Shown: positions 28,895 to 57,700 of the stretch, in pieces
How positions within the stretch are numbered: position 1 is the first letter of the stretch
Layout of the letters: each line of letters opens with the position of its first letter
Assembly (NCBI RefSeq): GCF_000524195.1
Contig: NW_020170399.1
Coordinates: 342,195 to 406,194, forward strand
Direction: 5' to 3'
From: Echinococcus granulosus
Lineage: Eukaryota; Platyhelminthes; Cestoda; Cyclophyllidea; Taeniidae
DNA length: 64,000 nt
Program-made: the position numbers and the translations under genes
The notes under the pieces: generated by a model
Told to the model about the DNA's origin: nothing
The model's database searches: none
What the model saw: only the letters and a program-made list of their open reading frames with translations

Positions 28895-40034
<11,140 letters not shown>

Positions 40035-41532: not shown

Positions 41533-44500
41533 TCACTCATCTACTGAATTTTTGTCAGCAGATGTAGTACGGAAGAGTGGCCAAGTGTGGAGGTTATTGT
41601 CAATTCCCGCCGTGTAAAGTTCCAGACGTTTTCGATTCCAAGCACAGGCCGTCATCTGTAAAATGAAAGAAGTCAAGCTTCGTGAGGTATTAGAATTTGC
41701 AGCTGTTTGACCAATGCTGTCACTGTCAGCTCTCCCCATCTAAAAAGCCATCTAAGGGAGTAGATCGTACGAAAAATAAATAATAAGAGCAATTAGTAAT
41801 GGAGTGCCGTGCTAAACAAAACTAGGAGTGTTTGAAAAGGTGAAAGGATTGGGAAAAAAAATCAAAAAGCGCTAAGTTGGAAACCGGTATCAGAAAAGGA
41901 CACGCTCGAGCCCTCCTTCCTTCCCCCAACCTACACATAAAAGTACACAAACCCCAATGACAACCCGAAGTTAAAAGCCATGAAACGGTTAATCAGCCGA
42001 ATATTCGTCGGTATATCGACATAGGTCGAAGATTTGTAGATTTCTCCGCTTTAATGAATCGATTCATTACACAAAAATGAATTGGTGAAGCAAACAAATG
42101 ATACAAAAATAAGGAAAATGAATGATGAATGAGGCCCAGAGTATTCAAAAGTTTAAGCGCCCGAAACCTCCAGCATATCCACTCAGTCAAACACTGACCC
42201 TATGCAATTAGAGAAGGGGCGGATGCATAGCACATAGCATTCTAGAACAGAACGTAATCAGTAGTATGAGAAACAATCTCTACGCTGGCCGCTGCTAGCG
42301 TCCCAATTTACAAATACAGTTATTCCAAAGCACTATAAAGTCCCCAAAGGTGAAGCAGGTGCTACAGTACCCTGGAGAAATGCCGTTTAATAGTCCATTG
42401 AGAGAGCACACTAGAGTCGTGATGATATGAACGCCTGTCGACAGAAGTGACAAGGAGAGTCTGATCGGTCGGCACGAAAACGAGCGCGCCCTCTGCACCC
42501 CAGGCATGGAAACGGGGGCCGATATCACCGTCGGTCACCGCGAGACGAACGCACCGCGGTGAGCTAATGTCGCTGCAGTGAAGATCGCTGACGCCGGCGC
42601 CAGCACCAATGCTGACAGCGCGATCTAGGGCGGCAGTGGCGACGCGTGGCTGTGCGGCAGCGCTCGAGCAGGGCGCCCCTCCATCCACCTCGAGGCCCCA
42701 CACACGTAGACATGAGCCACCCCGAGCTCCCGTGCCGCCCCACGAGTAGAGGTGAAGGCCATCGGGACTATTTGCCATGCCCTTCACTCCACCGTTGTGC
42801 GCTACAGCTAAATAAACATGTTTTGGGCATTTATTTCATTTGAATGCGATTATATTTGATGTACTTAATATCAAAGCTGCAATAAACCGCAGTCCCCAGG
42901 ATTTAGCGCTACCAGTTTCAATTCGTGTCGAAGGTGAGGCCAAAGTTAGACTGGAAAAAAAAAGTGAAATGAAAGAAAATGTTGCCGTATGAGAAAGGCA
43001 AAAAATTGTGCTGTTGCGGTCACTACCCCACCGAGGCACCTTGGTGAAAAACACGCTAAACGGAAATTCGGTGTTCAGGCTGCTTTTTCTGCCCTCAGCC
43101 TAAGACGGTGGAAATACTGTATGCAAATTGGACAATCGCTCACCGTCGTGCAAATATAGCGGCTCTTTATCCCTGTATTTATTGTTCAACGTAGCAACAG
43201 GCTTCAGTGGTACACGGATATCCCAAAAGATGATTCTCCCATCCTCACTAAAATCAACAAAAAAGACTGATGAGCGGGTGAGGAAGCACTTATTAACACC
43301 TCCTTTTTGTTCACTTTTATGTACTTAATTAAAGAAATGCGCGATGAAAGGCTGGTAGTAGAAATGTTATTACTAAGCTTATCTAGGGGTAGACTTCGCA
43401 ACAAAGCGGCCTGAATGTCAAAGCGATCAGCAGAAGATAGTGAGGGCAGTTGGTCAAGTGACGTGTGGAGCCCCCCAGAAAAAAAAGAGGTAAATGGCAG
43501 ACCCTGCGGTGAAGAGGATGAAGGAGTTGCGAGCCGACCAGAGGACCTGGGTGATGAGGGGGGCGGTGTGGGCGCCCAAGAGGCTGAGGCACGGTGCGCC
43601 GACGAGGGGATCAATGCAAACAAGGTGGCGATCGTAGCACCGCCGTAGCGACACTGCAATGAGATTGTGCTCCCTCGCGCACGGCGATAGCGCCGCCCAC
43701 GTCATCGACTCCGGTGTGGCGATTACCTCCACGCACTGCCACAACCATGGATCAGTAAGGTGGAACATGATGAATTTCGCATGCCAATAAGTGATATAAT
43801 CTATTTCTGATATAATTGCTAATGTACGCAAATCATTCATCTCTAAAGGCATTCATAGTACACATTAGAGGAGTGCACAATAATGTCCTTTATCCAAGCC
43901 TTCGTTCAAGTTAGTGGATACAGCCTACTACGATGCTAATTTAATCTGATTCAAGAGTCGATTCCACATCTTAAAGCAAGGTAACTCAGCAGACAAGAAT
44001 GGGTGGTGTAGACACAAGAACATGTTCATAAGCTTTAAAGATAGCAAAGAACTATGGAATTGCGATTTGCTTGGGTGTTTGAGTTATGTCGAGGCTGATA
44101 TTTGTTGAACATTGTCAATCCGTTTTGAAAAGTGCAGAATATCAAAAAGGGGGAGGAAGAGGAGAAAGTAAAGTCCCCTTTTCGTACTAAAACAGCTATA
44201 ATGATAATTTATTCTACGGAATAGTTCAAAAAGATCAAGTCTCAGGCACTCAAACATCCAATGCTATTCAATTGCTATCCAATGACTCGAATTAAGAATT
44301 AGAGTATGTCAAGCATAAATAAACACATTCGATCCTTCTACCTTCCATGGGAAAAATTCTGCATCCAAATATACGAAACCATACACGAGTTTGATCAGCG
44401 AATCACCCAGCCTGACTCAGACGCGGCGACAAGCTCACCTCAGCCGTATTAGTGTCCCAAACCTTGAGTGTGTTATCAACGGAGACACTGAAGAAGCAGC

Positions 44501-45292
44501 CCGTGTCCACGTGGTTCCACTGGAGGCACACGGACTGACTCAGCCTACCATCTCCAGTGCCAGAGGGATTGTGCTGTGAGGAGAGGAGGGTGGGCGGCAC
44601 AGAGGTGAGGTGAGCGAGGACGGGAAACACCAACGAAGGACTGCCGCTGTTAGTCTCGGTGGGGGCCTGTGTGTCGTAAAGCAGCAGGCTGCCATCACAG
44701 TTAGCCGAAAGAAGGCTATTGAAATGGGAAGAAAAATCCGTTGTGAGATTCACAGAAGCAATGACAGACGCCACTCCGCCTGATATTTACTCCTTCCATT
44801 AATTACGACCCATTAATTTTGCTGAAAACGCCACTGTTTTCTTCCTGAGAATCATTAAATTACGATAGCTTTGAAGTACGCACCTGAGCCAAGTGGCGCA
44901 ACCTATCACATAATGGAGCACCCGGCTTCTTAGTAGATGGGATGTGATCCCCACAAGTTCGAGTTCAAGGGATTCTCTAGGCCAATAAATGACACTAACT
45001 TGAGTGCAAAGTGGCCCCAAAATGTGGGACTCAAATGACGCCCCTAACACCACCAATAACTTGAACAACAGCAGGCAACACCAGTAATTCAACAAATGTT
45101 CCTCAATCCAACCTGATGAAACACGTACTAGCGCGACTCGATTGTGTCTAACGCGATATCTGCCGTCGGTCCACGATAATTTTCCTCGAACTTGATTGAG
45201 TAGTCAACATCAAAATGACTGAGATCGAGGCGGTGCTCCAAGTACTCTTGAAAGGCCAGAGAACGCGGCTTAAGTCCGTACTCGAAATCCAA
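41533..45292 (-). CDS. ERCC8: ERCC8/CSA-like WD40 protein, without its own AUG
   Basis: CSA is the WD40 substrate receptor of a DDB1-CUL4 ubiquitin ligase in transcription-coupled DNA repair. Minus-strand exons are 45292-45129, 44715-44439, 43735-43374, 42807-42371 and 41655-41533. Matches to human CSA in order include TADIALDTIESRY (human GINTLDIEPVEGRY), LLSANCDGSLLLYDT, VDTGCFFSVSVDNTLKVWDTN, VAHNGGVKGMANSPDGLHLYS and ACAWNRKRLELYTAG. Exon 1 opens TTG-GAT-TTC directly after a strong acce3ptor and has no ATG in frame; the first in-frame ATG is at about codon 158 (PESMTW). Exon 3 read straight through meets a stop. Frame returns if 52 bp (gtcact...attcag) are an intron, giving about 436 codons, or if one base of a nearby T8 or G6 run is extra. 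Human CSA has 396 residues. The gene follows VPS51 closely on the same strand. Confidence 0.87.
44885..44980 (+). repeat. tRNA-derived SINE-like element in ERCC8 intron 1
   Basis: An A-box-like block (tgagccaagtggcgcaacc) is followed by tggagcacccggcttcttag, resembling a tRNA anticodon arm, and by a B-box-like agttcgagttc at 44956-44966. The order and spacing are those of a tRNA-related polymerase III promoter with extra bases. It does not fold as a full tRNA, so a decayed SINE is more likely than a tRNA gene. Confidence 0.4.
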
Positions 45293-45311
45293 CTGGGATA
45301 GGAAAATTGTT
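45293..45311 (-). promoter_or_regulatory. Putative spliced-leader acceptor site of ERCC8
   Basis: On the minus strand, acaattttcctatcccag runs straight into the first CSA codon TTG. It lies 150-167 bases after the VPS51 stop on the same strand. No upstream cis-spliced exon with an ATG in the right phase was found. The only ATG-donor candidate in the spacer (atgacttgccat...aagcg/gtgagg) joins in the wrong frame. Confidence 0.55.
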
Positions 45312-45459
45312 ATAGTCTCCTCACCGCTTCTCAGGCAGTAAAAAATGGCAAGTCATTTGAAGCAATAGAGTTTAATTTGAAAAAAAAGAAGGAAATCAAC
45401 AGGTCACAGCAAAATACAAAACACACAAGACGAAAGAAGGTACAAGAGAGTGGGGGATA

Positions 45460-48400
45460 TCACTTGGAGGAAGTATTGCCCCCTCGGGAGGTGTCACAGA
45501 TAGCGTCAACGATCTGAAGATTCGAAAGGAAGGAAATTACAGCACCTTGTGACAAAAATTGACTAAAAGGACGAACAAAGGCTCACGCTATCGTCCATCA
45601 ATTGTGGCTCTACGCAGCGTTGCATGACACTGTACATCACGTCATCGAGCACATTCTGCACTTCCCTAAAAGCCCCGCCAAAAAAACATTTAAACTCGCC
45701 GTTCGAAAACTAGCCCTACATATGAGATTATTTGTTTACGAACGTTTCGGAAAAGGAACATCTGGGAACCTACCTCTCATCACTGACGAATCGCCAGAGG
45801 TGGATGTGCAAGTAGTGGCAGTCGACTTGAATTTGCTGGAGGCCGAATTTCCCGAATGTCCGCGTTCTTGCGCACTCACTGAAGGCCTGATAATTCAACC
45901 GATAAGGAGATCAAAGGACATCAAGCAATAATAATAAGCATAGGTTGTCAGCCACGAAAAAGGGAGATTTTGTGAGTTGACAAGTGACACAAATTCGATA
46001 TCTTCCATTCAAAAAGCTATTTTTGGGCCCGTCACCTAATTTTGACTTCTTTCACTCCTGTATAAGTAAAGTCAAATCACACCATCTCCCACAGCTAAGC
46101 AAATCACTTTCGCTATTGAGGCTAAACCTAGTTCCCTAGAGTTCTTTGAAACAGCAGTAAGACCTTTACAGTGGACTGACTCACTTTAAGACCAATCTTG
46201 ACCACTCCAAAGAGGATGGACTCGCGTGTCGGTTTGACAGGAGCAAACACGTTCACACGTTGATGAAAGAGACGTCGAAGTTGACTAGCCAACGCTGGAT
46301 CATACGCCGGCGAGGTAATAGCGCCGTGCTGCTGTGAGGAGCCCAAGGCGCCAGCAGCAGTAGTGGGAAGCGCAGCCAGACCTCCCACCGTCTGTCCACG
46401 AAGATGAGACATCGAGGAGCGCCAGGAGTACCGACCCTCCACCGATCCACGTCCACCCTCCTTTCCTACCCGACCACGTCCGGTCGTCGAAGGTGGAAGC
46501 AACTGACTCACCTTTTACGCAAGTAAGTTGATTTTCACCAGAATAACGTAAAAAGATGGTGAGAGTGGAGACGGACACGCACCTGGAAGTCGATGTTAGC
46601 GAGATCTTCGAGGATGCGTCGAATCACGGAGCGGACGGTACGCGGTTCGAGACAACGCAGCCAATCGCGGGCCTCGACGGACTTACGCATCATGTGTGCA
46701 AGCTGAGCACCCTCGAACTTGGCGAAGGTGGTCAGGAGACGCGTGGCCGTGGTGCGAAACTCCTCTGCCAGTGGACCCGGCGGAGTTAGAGGTTGCTGCC
46801 GAGTCGCCAGCATCTGTTGAATGGCCTGCTGGTGTGACTGAACTGAGGCCGAGGCTACAATGCGAAGCAATGGGAGAGGGAGTTAGCTAAAAGGTCCATT
46901 TCCAATGGTTGTAATCTATTCTCTGCAAAGTCGACAGTAGTGATGACACTTCCATGGCCCTAGAAACTCGCTCATGGAGAATCGTACTTGGTTTTCAAAA
47001 AATGGCATTAGGATCACAAGGGATTCTAGGCATGACTTTAACGTAAGGAAATAGATTTCCTCTTACAGGTAAATCTTACACCCACATATGTCTCAGGTGA
47101 ATATAATCACGGTAGTTTCTTCACACAGTTTACAACTATGTGCCCATTAAGGAGTTTGAGTCATCAGAAGTTTTTAATCAGAAAGATGACAAGGAAGTGT
47201 GAAATAATGGGAGAGTACTAAAAAAAGTATACGACGTAGAATCAAAATGCGTGGTATTGGCTTACATTTTGGGAGACCAATGAGAAGAAAGTCATCGGCC
47301 ATGCTTAGCAAATGACCGATGGTACCGGAATTGGCCCAGTCGAGACAAAGTTTTCCCATCAGTAAAATTATGCTTCCTGGAATACTGGAGGGCGTACACT
47401 GCATAAAAAATACCATAAAATATCAAGTATAAACATTCAGATGTAAGAGTGGAATAAGGCGCTTGATTTGGCAGTAGCCGTTTACTCGGTTTCACTGATT
47501 CAAGCGGTAATTTAAGTTCTAATGGTGTTAAACTATCGGGTGATACAGTAATTGTGCACACCACACCTTTGAAAGCTCCTTGCAAAATTGGATGAGGAAA
47601 CGGAGGTAGGCAGTGACAATATCCTCTCGGATGTAGTCCAAACAGAAGGTAGCGCGGAAAAGTTGGAGATGAGCAAAGGTATTATCGCTTGATAAGAAGG
47701 GCTGAGTGAAGAGGAATTTTAACGAAGTAAATTAACTCAATCGAGAGAATAAGAGAACTGTCAAACTGTAACGCAAATCTACCTCCAACTCCTCGAGGCA
47801 GTCACGAAGGTTAGTCGCCAAAATTCGGCTCATTTCATTGTAGATCTCTGTGAGCGTCTTCCTGTCACCCTCATTTTCACTAGAATTAATAAATTAAATG
47901 GTGAACAGGGTGAGGCTGTGAGTCAAATATCTGAATATTCAATTCATCAATACACGTCTAAAACCAACAAGGGTAAATGGGGCAATAAGGCAAGAAAAGC
48001 GAGAATTATTAGTAACATTCGATGAAAGAAATCCACCAACCATCGCTTTCGTAGTAATAGCTGAGTCCCCCTGTCTGCACCAGAATGAGGCACTTATTAC
48101 CGGAGGGATGTCAGATTACTTAGCTTACATTAAAGACAGCACATCATCCGGTTCATTTGATAAGAAACTTTCTTAGAGCCAACTCATGAACAACGAACTC
48201 AATCATACCTCAAAGGTAATGGGCGAAACTATCCAGATATCCAATTATTAAACAAACCACTGAAATCTACCTCTTGGCCCTTGCATTACCACCCCCTCAT
48301 AATACCACCAGAGGTTTATCTGCCTCTAGCATTCAACATATAATAAGAGTTCTCGAATAAATACTTGTTCGTTGGTTTGGAGCAGACATTCGTGACGAGG

Positions 48401-51333
48401 TAATGCCTGATGTCAGTCAGGCAGTCGGCAGTCTGCAGCTTAAGACAGGCAAACTGTTTCTCACGACAACACCTCGCGGCCACAGCCAATACCATGTTCA
48501 GGGAGGCCTCATCGAGACTTCGCTTGAAGTTGTTGGCCGCTTGGGAGGAAGACTCGTTCGGTGGCACGACAACTTCCAGAACGCTACGTCCGAAACCCAC
48601 TAGTCGCGCATAGAGGCGCTCCAGAGCTCGCACCAGCAGACTTATCTCAGTGGACTGAACCTTAACAAGTTAAATATGGATAAATAATGCAGGAAGGCCT
48701 CGGCTTTTGCTCTTACAACTAGGAATGCAGTTGATTACTAGCATATTCATAAATTCCTTTCAGTATAAGCTCATCGGCTTATAAGACTTACGGAGCAAAA
48801 TTATAAATAGGAATTTAAGCGAGTAGAACAACTGGAATAAGACCATGTCCTATTAAAACATACCAGTTAGTGAATGGAACGTACAGTATTTCAACTTAGA
48901 AACTAAACATCGAACTCACTCCGTCTTGCATCTTCTTGTCAATCAGGGCAATGAACTTCTGGGTCAAACTTTGGAGAAACTCAAAAAGAGGAGTCTCGAG
49001 GTTATCTTCTGAATGACTATCCCTGGAGGAGGGAGGAAAAGGAGGAGATAAGACTTTCGCTCTGTCACTGTCAAGGTTCTGTATCGCAAGGCGGCAGCTT
49101 AGTCTTGCTAGACCAAACGCACATTGAGGGTAGGACACGAAATCAGGCGGCGAAACAATTCAAGTAGGAAACAGCGTTTATTCCAGTAATTAAAAAAAGG
49201 AAAACCGGAAACTTTTAATTGAGCGAGTCGACATGAGTTTCGCTCAGTAAAAGACAATTGTGCTTCAAACAACAGGAGCAAAGGAAAAAGGAAGGGGAAC
49301 AAAATTGCCAAAAAGAGTACCAATTACTATTACTAATTTACAACTCTTTTGAACGACTGTGCATTCAACCAACCCTACTCGTGGATGAGGACAAACCTCG
49401 ATGACAGAGTTGCGTTGCTAAGAAAGCGGCTTGAATAGGCAAAGACGTAGGATAGTGCCCCTTCGGAAATCGTATCCGCCGCTGCATTTGCAAAATTCAA
49501 AAGGTCCTACAGAGGGGAATAAAGAAACTTGAAATCAAACCATTTTGGTTAATGCATACGTACAAGGAAAATGAGGTAATCGTTAAATTCAACATGGTTA
49601 CGGGAACCTCAATGGAATGCGTCTTGGGCAAATTGGAGGAGTGATAACGCGATAATGTGCACTATGTGAGAATGATTTCCTCAGCTTGAACTCGGGAAGG
49701 GAGCCTCACCTACGGTATTACACATGCTCAAACCCCACCCTTTCTGCCATCCCTAGTATGCATAAAGAACTTTTCTCAGATGTGAATCAAATAAGCTATT
49801 TGACACTGTTGATGAGGCTAGACTAATTCATCTCATTTGATTCATGCCATAAATTTCATCACCAAGTGTGCAACGTTGTAGCGGAAACCAGTACTTGTCT
49901 CAACTTATGGCCATCCCAGAGTTACCACATACTCCCTTACACACCAAGTTTTATTCCTGAGAACACGCGATACGAGCATGCGAGAGTCCCCAGTTTTTGT
50001 AGTGGGACCAATAAATTAGTTATAAACCTAATAACAACTGCTATCCATCCTAAGGAGCCGACACGTCAGAAAATATAAGACAAAAAAGCATGATGAGAGG
50101 TGTGAACGCCTTACAGGCACAGACGACTCTACACTTTCCACATCTTGCGGGGAATCCAATTTCTCAAACAGCGAGTCGATGCAGTGTGAAGCTCTGCGAC
50201 AAAGGAAGCATAGAAGTCTAATATTAATTGCTTACACTTGAATAAACTTTTTTGACAATTCTGACATGGGCTGTCCGAGTTGCATCAGAACCTCAATTGA
50301 CGTGGTTAAAGTCTGCGAATCCTCCTGAATTGAAGAAAAATTGTTCTATACAAGTAACTTTCCACTATTCAAAACAAAAAAAATAAAATTTTAACTGGTC
50401 ATATGTACCGATATACCAAAACAGCGCTATCGCCTGAAGCATTCATGCGTAGATCAAGGCATAGAATTTGCATATCTATTCGTAAATAATATATACCGTA
50501 TGCGAGGGTCTATTTTGACATATACCTTTATCAATAGGAGTGGAGTTAAAAGAAGGTATGCATTAGAATTGAGCTAAAAACTCTTTTACCGCCGAAAGTA
50601 GACGAGACTCCACCTCTTTGACAACTTCACTGATCAGCTCTGTGCATTCCTTATCTATGCCTTTAAAAGATGGAATGTTGCGATGTTTCTCGAAAAATCC
50701 ACTCGCTTTAATATAGGCGTCTACCGCTTTGGTCCAATCCTCCTTTTTCATGAACTCTCTAATCTTTGACGGCAGTGAAGACAAGTACCCTAGCTAAACG
50801 GGGATATGGTAAAGAAAAGGAAATATCTTTACTGACCCTCCGCAAATTTTCAGCTGTTGTTACCAGTTTCCTGATGGCTGTGCTTGACTCACGAATTTCT
50901 TGGTCGATCTCACTAGAATAAAGTTGTATCTCAACCATGCTCTCAGCAAGGGAGTTCATTTCATCTTCAATGAATTTAAAGTTAGACTTCATCTAATAAG
51001 GAGTTAGCTGCTCAGGAAAAAGGTAGCACAATTTACCATTTTGATTGTGTGTGTGGCATTTATGAACTTGTTATAATTATCGTAAACAAGCGTCTGCATT
51101 TCGGAGTCAAGAGAACGAATTTGTTCAGATATTTCTGTCTCTTTAGCCAACAAATCGTTCAGATCACATTTTTGGAGGAGATCATTTAGGTACTCCCTTG
51201 GATCGAAGCCCACAGAATCAATGTTCTTTGGATCGGGAAGAATTTCAGTTACTTCATCAGCCTTAGATTTCGGACCGTAGAACTCAAAAAGGCGTTTCTT
51301 TCGCTGCAATCGATCTTCTGAGTCTACTTGCAT
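45460..51333 (-). CDS. VPS51: VPS51, subunit of the GARP and EARP tethering complexes
   Basis: VPS51 tethers endosome-derived carriers at the trans-Golgi (GARP) and acts in endocytic recycling (EARP). Sixteen minus-strand exons join in phase: 51333-51037, 50992-50837, 50793-50590, 50324-50236, 50193-50115, 49506-49397, 49022-48920, 48654-48365, 47879-47783, 47701-47567, 47398-47266, 46854-46583, 46511-46185, 45886-45774, 45665-45587 and 45513-45460; 845 residues (782 in human). The N-terminal Vps51 domain has GFDPREYL, IRSLDSEMQTLVYDNYNKFI and FKFIEDEMNSLAESM, a helical coiled-coil region. Near the C-terminus lie MRKSVEARDWLRCLEPRTVR and TFGKFGLQQIQVDCHYLH, and the end IVDAICD matches human VVEVICERG. 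The first two introns are 44 and 43 bp. The ATG directly follows ttttag. The 3' neighbour ERCC8 may be co-transcribed. Confidence 0.95.
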
Positions 51334-54621: not shown

Positions 54622-54680
54622 CACGTGAGTCACAGCCAATCAGAGGGCGAACAAAACACTCGTTGGGCTATTTAAAAAGC
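54622..54680 (+). promoter_or_regulatory. TATA/CCAAT core promoter of the cadherin gene
   Basis: In order there are an E-box (cacgtg, 54622-54627) overlapping an AP-1-like tgagtca (54626-54632), a CCAAT box in agccaatcag (54636-54640), and a TATA-like tatttaaaaag (54669-54679). The ATG is at 54713, so a start site about 25-30 bases after the TATA box would leave a 5' UTR of only 10-20 bases. It is the only clear TATA promoter in the window. Confidence 0.6.
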
Positions 54681-54712
54681 CGATCGCCCTCGACTTCGTC
54701 AACTCTGTGTCA

Positions 54713-57700
54713 ATGCTTCTGTCACTCATCATTCTCACGGTTTGCACATTTGCATTCTGCAATGCAGCCTCCACCTCGGCAAAATCGGTGCACTATGTGG
54801 TGCAAGAGGAGTGTGGACCCGGGACGTACATCGGGAACCCCATTCGTGATGCCAATATCCAAAGTGAGAATAAGCAACCCCTCTTCATCAAACTCATGTA
54901 CAGTAAAAAGGGGGATTTTGCATTAAACGAGACTACAGGGGATCTTCGCACAACTAGGCATCTGGATCGGGAAGCTCTCTGTGGTCGTGGCGTGCACCCA
55001 CGGAGGAAGCTCAACCCACTGCCTCTGCAACGCGCAGACAGCATCAAAACCCCTAAGGAAATTAAATACGCCAAAGTGGTCATTTCTACCGCTGCGTCAT
55101 CGCAGAAGTGTCAAGTAGAGTTGAGCATGGTGGTGCACAGTGGGGACAACCTCTTAGAGACTTGGATAAACGTCCACATTGTCGTGCAAGACTTGAATGA
55201 CAACTGGCCCTACTTTGAGGAAGGTTCTTGGAATCTTACATTGAGTGAACTTACCTCTGTTGGTGCCACGTTCCAGCTTCCACAAGCTGTCGATTTGGAT
55301 GAACCAGAACGTTCCGTCCTGCGCTACGGTTTGGTCGATGAGAGCTTTCCCTCCTGTCGGAATCACTTTTCCATCACGTGTCAGTCTGAAATAGTTTCCT
55401 GTGACCTTCGCCTTGTTCTTGAGAAACCTGTGGACTTTGAAGTGTGCCAGCACCACCATCTGATCCTTTTTGCAGAAGACTCAGGCTCTACTGAAGCCAT
55501 TCTGCCTATTTGCGTAAATATTAAGAACGAAAACGAGCACCAACCACGGTTTATTCAATCCAGCACCCATTTAAGCATCCCTCGAGATAGCCAGCCTAGA
55601 ATTCCCCTAACCAAATTTCACGCAGTGGACAAAGACGCTGGGAAGGACGGTGAAATTACTTTCCTAACAAATTCAACCTACTTCGAGGTGACTGATGGAA
55701 AGTTACTGCTTACGAGAAGTCTGCTTCACTACCCGGAGAAGAAAATGAAAGTTTTTGTGACTGCTACTGATGCCGGGAATCCACCGCGTCAGTCAACCTT
55801 AGAGGTGGCTGTTGAAATAACCGGTGAGGAGGCAGAATTACAACCTGGCAAGATTTTCATCAAACCACTTGGAGGAGAGGCAATCAGTGGCTCCGACGCA
55901 CCCATCCTGCTTCCCAATTCTGCGGAGAAGGACACGCTAGTTGCACTGATTTGGACAGAAGGTGGCACTTCCAAGGTTTCATGCTCTATGCATCCTGCTC
56001 TTTCACATTTTGCCCTCGAAAACGCCGGTCTCCTTATGGGTAAACCCACGTTTACATTGAAGGTTAACAAGTCATACAATTTCTCACAGAAATTTGACAT
56101 TATACGGAGCCGTGTCGAGGCCCAGGATGTTCGTGTCACTTGTGGCAGCAGTCAATTAAGTCTTCATATTCGTCTAGCGCCTCCGCCGGGACAGCAATTC
56201 CGATTCCCTCAGAAGGAAGTTCACCTCTCTATCGAAGAATCCTCCAGCCCAATTATTGGTTTCTACACTCTCAGACCCCTGAATGGAGTTGGTGAGATTT
56301 ATTTTAAAAAGGACTGCAACTCTCCTGAATGCGCACGTATGCATGTAAATTCAAGAACGGGAGTCTTATCCATTCCTCACGGGATTGATCGTGAGGTCAC
56401 TCCAGAATTGCGTTGTCGTTTCTCCGCCTCCGATAGTGATCACCCCGCTAATCGGATTCGCGTTGATATTGTAATAACCGTGAAGGATATTAACGACTGT
56501 GCACCGTCATTATCCCAATTGTACTACTCTTTACCAGAATTTGATGGCTTGATGCAAACCCCCATCCTGCCCACTTGGATACCTCTCCTCAAACTTGATG
56601 CTCTTGATTTCGATGAAGGATTAAATGGATCAGTTCATTTTGAGCTAAGAAGTGTAAAAACTTTCAGTAACGGCTCCAGCAACGATCGTATTCCCAAATT
56701 TCGTTTATCAACTGAGTCTGGTGAGGTCTCCATCAAGGGGAAAGATTATCCTCTTTTAGACAGGGAGGAGATTTCAGAAATAGTGCTATTTGTTTACCTT
56801 TATGACTTGGGCAGTCCCTTTCGACTCTCCGCCACGTATGAGGTCAAGCTTACCCTGGAGGACGTCAACGACAACGCTCCAATATTCTTTGATTCAGAGA
56901 GCGAAGCGCTCCTCCGAAATATGCCCTGGTATCGCTCAACAGATCCTGTGCCTGGATTTTGGACTCAAATTCGCATCTACGATCCCGATCAAGGTGAAAA
57001 TGGAACTACCGTTCTGTCAGTGCTTGAAAAGCCGCCTGTGGATTCCACAGACCCCAACTTGCGTCCACATCAGGTGACCCTCTTCAAGGACGGGCGATTA
57101 TGGGTGGCAGAAGGGTTGGTAAAAGGTGTAGCCTTGCAGGTAGTCTATCTTCGTGCAGTTGACATGGGCTCCCGCCGTCAGCTCCACAGCGAAGCCAAAC
57201 TCGTAGTCGATCCCGAGAGCGATCAGCATGGTCGTAATCAATTAAAGCGCCCGATGTTTGTGCGTAGCAATAGCTACAGCGCAGGACAATTTATGCAAAA
57301 GTTAGTGCGTCTCAAAGACACCTTCACGTCCGCCCCAGTTGCTATGAGTAAGGCTCACGTCATCCTCCTCATTGTCGGTGTCAGTCTGATCTGTTGCATT
57401 CTGGCCAGCACCTGCGTTGCTTGTGTGGTACTGCGAAAGTAAGCAACCGTCGCTGCTGGCACTCGCCCTCATCCGACCCATCTCTTTACACCAACGATAT
57501 CTGTATTTTTCCACATGTATATTGTATTTTATGGACAAATTCATTCCATACTTGGAGGCAAGCGATTAAGTATTTCAGGCATCGTGACCCAGCACAGTTG
57601 GTGTCGGATGTCAGCAGTCTTTTAGGTTAGGCTATAAGCGTTTCAAAAATCTTAAACTTTGTAGAGTTTTTAAATTGATGATCACAATCACGAGCTTCGC

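Follow-up and report, generated by a model that had tools for sequence, protein, structure and literature searches.

A flatworm spliced-leader AUG is said to serve as an initiator methionine, in work attributed to Cheng et al. (2006, J Biol Chem). With few exceptions, flatworm leaders have a terminal AUG, with GU next (PMC12582326, section 7), and a spliced leader (SL) RNA ending in AUG has been reported for Echinococcus granulosus and other flatworms (PMC3510090, PMC12582326). For E. granulosus, section 15 of PMC3510090 counts 187 EST clusters that bear the leader and predicts 143 of them to be full length from the leader ATG; four of the eight clusters in Table 2 of that paper would need the leader AUG to have a conserved N terminus (section 15). 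An earlier note on the present DNA held that the AUG of flatworm leaders such as that of Schistosoma is able to initiate. Flatworm genes also occur in candidate operons, for which PMC12582326 requires a shared strand and a distance of at most 300 bp; that study, of 24 flatworm species, gives a median of 448.5 per cestode genome and describes cis-splicing at operon-resolving acceptors as very rare (section 19).

We analysed a window of E. granulosus DNA (the whole stretch of 64,000 nt; positions below are counted from its first base) in which ERCC8/CSA lies on the minus strand directly behind VPS51. We consider it probable (roughly 0.82) that the two genes form an operon resolved by SL trans-splicing and that the leader AUG is the ERCC8 start. 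This reading has its direct basis in the gene order, the spacing, the missing AUG and the phase in this genome, together with the absence of a Met in related gene models. The locus resembles the E. granulosus leader-AUG genes of PMC3510090, from the same species, in its predicted AUG-ending leader and in-phase join and in a conserved N terminus without an AUG of its own, but differs in that ERCC8 is not named there and that the ERCC8 trans-splice is deduced from DNA. It likewise resembles the flatworm operons as PMC12582326 presents them, with two same-strand genes less than 300 bp apart that are fused in several annotations; the difference is that neither gene appears in the main text of that paper, in which (supplementary tables apart) ERCC8, VPS51, ‘excision repair’, ‘vacuolar protein sorting’ and Cockayne have no occurrences. 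Because leader AUGs have already been reported as initiators in E. granulosus (PMC3510090), ERCC8 would be a further, conserved case of something that flatworms are documented to do, and not a new mechanism. In a literature search that lay outside most subscription journals, we found no paper pairing ERCC8 with Echinococcus or naming it as a leader-AUG case.

Table 1. Features of the VPS51–ERCC8 locus, in window coordinates.
Feature	Position	Strand	Remarks
VPS51 gene, first cistron	45460..51333	minus	ATG at 51333
VPS51 exon end MDDS, then GTGAGC	45587..45598	minus	phase-0 compatible with 45292; possible cis-spliced VPS51–ERCC8 fusion route; join MDDS-LDFEYG present in the Hydatigera model
VPS51 stop codon TGA, after ...ICDTSRGGNTSSK	45460..45462	minus	M. 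corti and H. diminuta have separate VPS51 models with a similar C terminus
Spacer from the VPS51 stop to ERCC8 exon 1, 167 nt	45293..45459	minus	one ATTAAA at 45376; one out-of-frame ATG at 45356
Alternative AG, exon start 45329	45330..45331	minus	tract 13/17; a leader there would read MKR-stop
Candidate spliced-leader acceptor TAACAATTTTCCTATCCCAG	45293..45312	minus	12/17 pyrimidines ahead of the final three bases; in phase 0 with ERCC8
ERCC8 5′ sequence, expected join point for a leader at 45292		minus	TTGGATTTCGAG
ERCC8/CSA exon 1	45129..45292	minus	164 nt; first codons TTG GAT TTC; without in-frame ATG; identical to P0006
ERCC8 exon 2	44439..44715	minus	
ERCC8 exon 3	43503..43735	minus	carries the first in-frame Met (residue 158)
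ERCC8 exon 4	43144..43247	minus	
ERCC8 exon 5	42371..42807	minus	
ERCC8 exon 6	41534..41655	minus	

ERCC8/CSA is a WD40 substrate receptor in transcription-coupled repair. The six joined exons of the tapeworm gene give 445 codons, and this model is supported by a public E. granulosus protein of 1330 residues, P0006 (the representative of a 90%-identity cluster of six sequences), whose ERCC8 portion is identical at all 445 residues. Human ERCC8 was the best PDB match (E = 1.6e-26, with the first 405 residues as the query), and Pfam WD40 scored 50.3 bits (cut-off 27); the tapeworm gene differs in that an AUG before the conserved N terminus is absent from this genome and from four related models that span the site. 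Exon 1 starts directly after TTCCTATCCCAG and ends in CGCTA, followed by the donor GTACGT. The earlier note had claimed that this exon opens with TTG-GAT-TTC right after a pyrimidine-rich AG, that no in-frame ATG occurs until about codon 158 and that the only nearby upstream ATG with a donor joins in the wrong frame, and the observation is confirmed: the tract has 12 pyrimidines in 17 bases, the earliest in-frame Met of the 445 codons is residue 158, and the ATG at 45356, which is out of frame, is the only one in the 228 nt from 45520 to 45293 (minus strand). No in-frame ATG was found in the minus-strand, 167-nt spacer between VPS51 and ERCC8. A Met-less run of 157 codons is, by itself, not very rare, and the weight of the case lies with phase, gene order and conservation. 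The expected Met-Leu-Asp-Phe had also been likened to the human Met-Leu-Gly-Phe; the exact phase stood, as the acceptor is in phase 0, but the sequence likeness proved weak (9.1 bits for the N-terminal stretch alone). In the PDB alignment, residue 40 pairs with residue 43 of human ERCC8, so that the N termini would be of near-equal length, across a stretch that aligns weakly. The distance of a conserved anchor from the Met among flatworms is better evidence than likeness to the human N terminus.

Immediately upstream, and in the same orientation, lies VPS51 (Pfam VPS51_Exo84_N, E = 1.1e-21), a neighbour that was absent from the earlier note. By the 300-bp operon threshold, ERCC8 counts as the downstream member of a candidate operon, since it shares the strand of VPS51 and lies 167 nt from the VPS51 stop. 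The pairing is kept elsewhere, with the two genes joined in six fused public models (one of them from E. granulosus) and present in M. corti as separate models that are each listed with a 22,349-base contig. Among the five AGs of the spacer, the one before 45292 is the only one that has a pyrimidine tract and would also place a leader AUG in the ERCC8 phase. The tract at the AG before 45329 is as good as that at 45292, yet its frame is dead; a leader joined at the AG before 45326 (pyrimidines, 11/17) would read MR-stop; and two further AGs, before 45319 and before 45316, are in phase, though with pyrimidines numbering only 7/17 and 5/17. The ERCC8 acceptor, TCCCAG, is one base off the published UUNYAG motif.

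On the operon reading, VPS51 and ERCC8 would be transcribed together from the minus strand as a two-gene unit, and the pre-mRNA would be cut and polyadenylated downstream of VPS51. We infer that a spliced leader is trans-spliced onto the AG immediately before 45292, and that its 3′-terminal AUG, joined in phase 0 to TTG GAT TTC, would initiate an ERCC8 of 446 residues that begins Met-Leu-Asp-Phe. If no leader were added, the earliest in-frame AUG would be that of residue 158, within the WD40 propeller, and trans-splicing of ERCC8 would in this sense be obligate.

A pattern search allowing up to three mismatches did not find the leader sequence in the E. granulosus assembly (103.6 Mb, 272 contigs); a newer long-read assembly of the species, unlike an older one, contains 93 leader loci, as given in PMC12582326 (section 8). 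A 16-base part of the leader, with at most one mismatch, occurred at six places in the assembly (three for the reversed control), two of which had GT next and none of which had an Sm-like motif behind it. A COX6B-like gene at another locus (L016) was considered as a same-genome positive control for a leader-only start and was rejected, given that by eye it has its own ATG; the E. granulosus genome thus gives no positive control for the signature. Another locus (L015; G000:C212:89568-89747, minus strand) encodes a short Cys-bearing protein (Pfam COX6B, E = 8.6e-11), which we take to be COA6-like. Its open frame starts with ACG GAG AAG directly after CTTTAG and is without a Met, so that this may be another gene dependent on a leader AUG.

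Public models of the junction were compared using the tapeworm and fluke ERCC8 and VPS51 sequences obtained from three length-restricted protein searches (up to about 8,000 candidates each). Six of these models are VPS51–ERCC8 fusions (E. granulosus, Taenia crassiceps, T. solium, Hydatigera taeniaeformis, Anoplocephala perfoliata and Rodentolepis nana), as would be expected if the pair encoded one true fusion protein, with cis-splicing that drops the VPS51 stop or last exon and no need for a separate ERCC8 start. The donor after 45587 would offer such a route, in a phase compatible with 45292, and the Hydatigera model uses that join (MDDS-LDFEYG). The junctions, however, are all different. The E. 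granulosus model reads straight through the acceptor (SSK-SGEETITIFLSQ-LDFEYG); those of T. crassiceps, T. solium and Rodentolepis read SSKG-YIFISLSQ-LDFEYG, MEDS-RSDEEAISIFLSQ-LDFEYG and ...GVA-LPSERG, respectively; and the Anoplocephala model lacks the beginning of ERCC8 exon 1, picking up at FDEANRGP. No junction is common to the six, and a VPS51 stop intervenes in the E. granulosus genome. Separate VPS51 models stop at the equivalent place in H. diminuta and M. corti (SGSNLSK and TGSNLSK; E. granulosus GGNTSSK is alike), the M. corti ERCC8 being modelled on its own, and section 10 of PMC12582326 describes such chimeras as mis-annotated operon genes. A true fusion protein is therefore distinctly unlikely, and from their sequences the six fusions look like annotation artefacts, although a minor fused transcript may be made through the donor after 45587. 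The tapeworm ERCC8/VPS51 models P0001, P0003, P0005 and P0006–P0010 are fused, late-starting or without part of exon 1, and probably need correction. The operon reading suggests errors, open to correction, in several public annotations (the VPS51–ERCC8 fusions, and ERCC8 taken from residue 158).

An in-frame AUG might instead come from within VPS51, if that gene housed a cryptic 5′ exon that had a separate promoter and was cis-spliced to 45292. Within 500 nt upstream, three donors (match score of at least 5) could link an ATG in phase with ERCC8; two of these have their start within a VPS51 intron, and the other is the GTGAGC donor after MDDS. Shuffled sequence gives as many, however (mean of 2.8 across 200 single-base shuffles), and within 1000 nt four were observed against 6.4 after shuffling. 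None of the three lies inside the 167-nt spacer, and such an exon would lengthen the N terminus past most other flatworm models, which makes this route very unlikely. Initiation at a non-AUG codon, such as the CTG at 45334 or the TTG itself, could draw on a 20-codon open stretch upstream, in frame and with an in-frame CTG, 10 of 13 residues of which match T. solium; but this requires a 5′ end left untrimmed at the acceptor, whereas flatworm leaders give an AUG at the exact place, and we regard it as most improbable.

The leader-derived start gains from comparison with related tapeworms. In the five models that span the site (E. granulosus included), the homologous Leu is preceded by Q in E. 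granulosus, T. crassiceps and T. solium, by S in Hydatigera and by A in R. nana, and the next Met comes 156–159 residues further along. The Q of E. granulosus is the CAG of the acceptor itself, and the sequence LSQ suggests that the Q in both Taenia likewise comes from an acceptor CAG; the model of Hydatigera, and perhaps that of Rodentolepis, splices at the Leu and shows only an annotation without a Met there, not the preceding triplet. The Anoplocephala model, without the first part of exon 1, says nothing on the Met, and no H. diminuta ERCC8 was among the sequences returned by the protein searches. The H. microstoma model P0003 begins at the Met homologous to residue 158, a late start such as an annotation would give on meeting no earlier AUG. 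The same model could indicate that ERCC8 is decaying and that only a short form from Met158 is made, but the protein of exon 1 is conserved (identities of 46/54 in T. solium, 45/54 in T. crassiceps, 40/54 in Hydatigera and 28/54 in Rodentolepis), and we find decay barely credible.

Outgroup models carry a Met, with N termini of MLQWKCEHGL in M. corti, MREFWKCECNL in Spirometra, MDEFWKCECNL in S. solidus (P0041) and MHDFWRCECNL in D. latus, and all five fluke ERCC8 models start with Met. A Met start is near-universal in gene models, so the evidence is the place of the Met and not its presence. The first Met lies 25–31 residues from a conserved DV[DN][YH] anchor in eight of ten other flatworm models; the distance is 73 residues in Sparganum (29 from the second Met) and 55 in Paragonimus (30 from the second Met), and with a leader Met it would be 28 in E. 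granulosus. The ten leave out P0005 (a second S. solidus model, without the N terminus), P0047 (a fragment) and P0052 (barnacle), as well as P0050, P0051, P0053 and P0054 (unnamed or non-flatworm). The models agree with a conserved missing ATG, for which the earlier note had proposed a comparison, with no Met before the Leu in the taeniid models and Rodentolepis and an outgroup Met at a similar place. Together with the phase 0 join, the lack of an own AUG and the 167-nt gap, the related and outgroup models support the leader-AUG interpretation that the note had put forward.

Mesocestoides presumably branches outside the taeniid–hymenolepidid group. An AUG of its own, apparently kept in Mesocestoides and the diphyllobothriids, would have been lost from ERCC8 toward the taeniids and hymenolepidids; judged from the models, it was probably ancestral and lost in the taeniid–hymenolepidid line, which would put the loss among the cyclophyllidean tapeworms. 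The M. corti Met-Leu-Gln-Trp can be aligned with Leu-Asp-Phe plus a preceding Met, in an alignment that is our own reading and needs a two-residue gap, placed differently by aligners; the Met of P0041 could be leader-derived, if P0041 is a transcript assembly. We give even odds to a fuller scenario in which the ancestral tapeworm ERCC8 had an own AUG that was redundant behind VPS51 and next to a leader acceptor and was lost in the taeniid–hymenolepidid ancestor, but not in Mesocestoides, leaving a one-way dependency; a core DNA-repair gene would then need a trans-spliced RNA for its start codon, and an exit from the operon would not be easy. The locus would then offer a comparative case, with related tapeworms with and without their own AUG side by side and a loss that can be placed on the tree.

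Several other features of the window were seen. Convergent with ERCC8, positions 38980-39348 (plus strand) encode the tail of a protein kinase domain (Pfam Pkinase, E = 7.2e-12), which presumably resembles the LATS/NDR kinases. At about 38060-38170 there is a run of approximately 100 N (the whole window holds 100 N), perhaps an assembly gap. The longest open frame in the window, of 937 codons, lies at 54629-57442 (plus strand) and is cadherin-like by eye.
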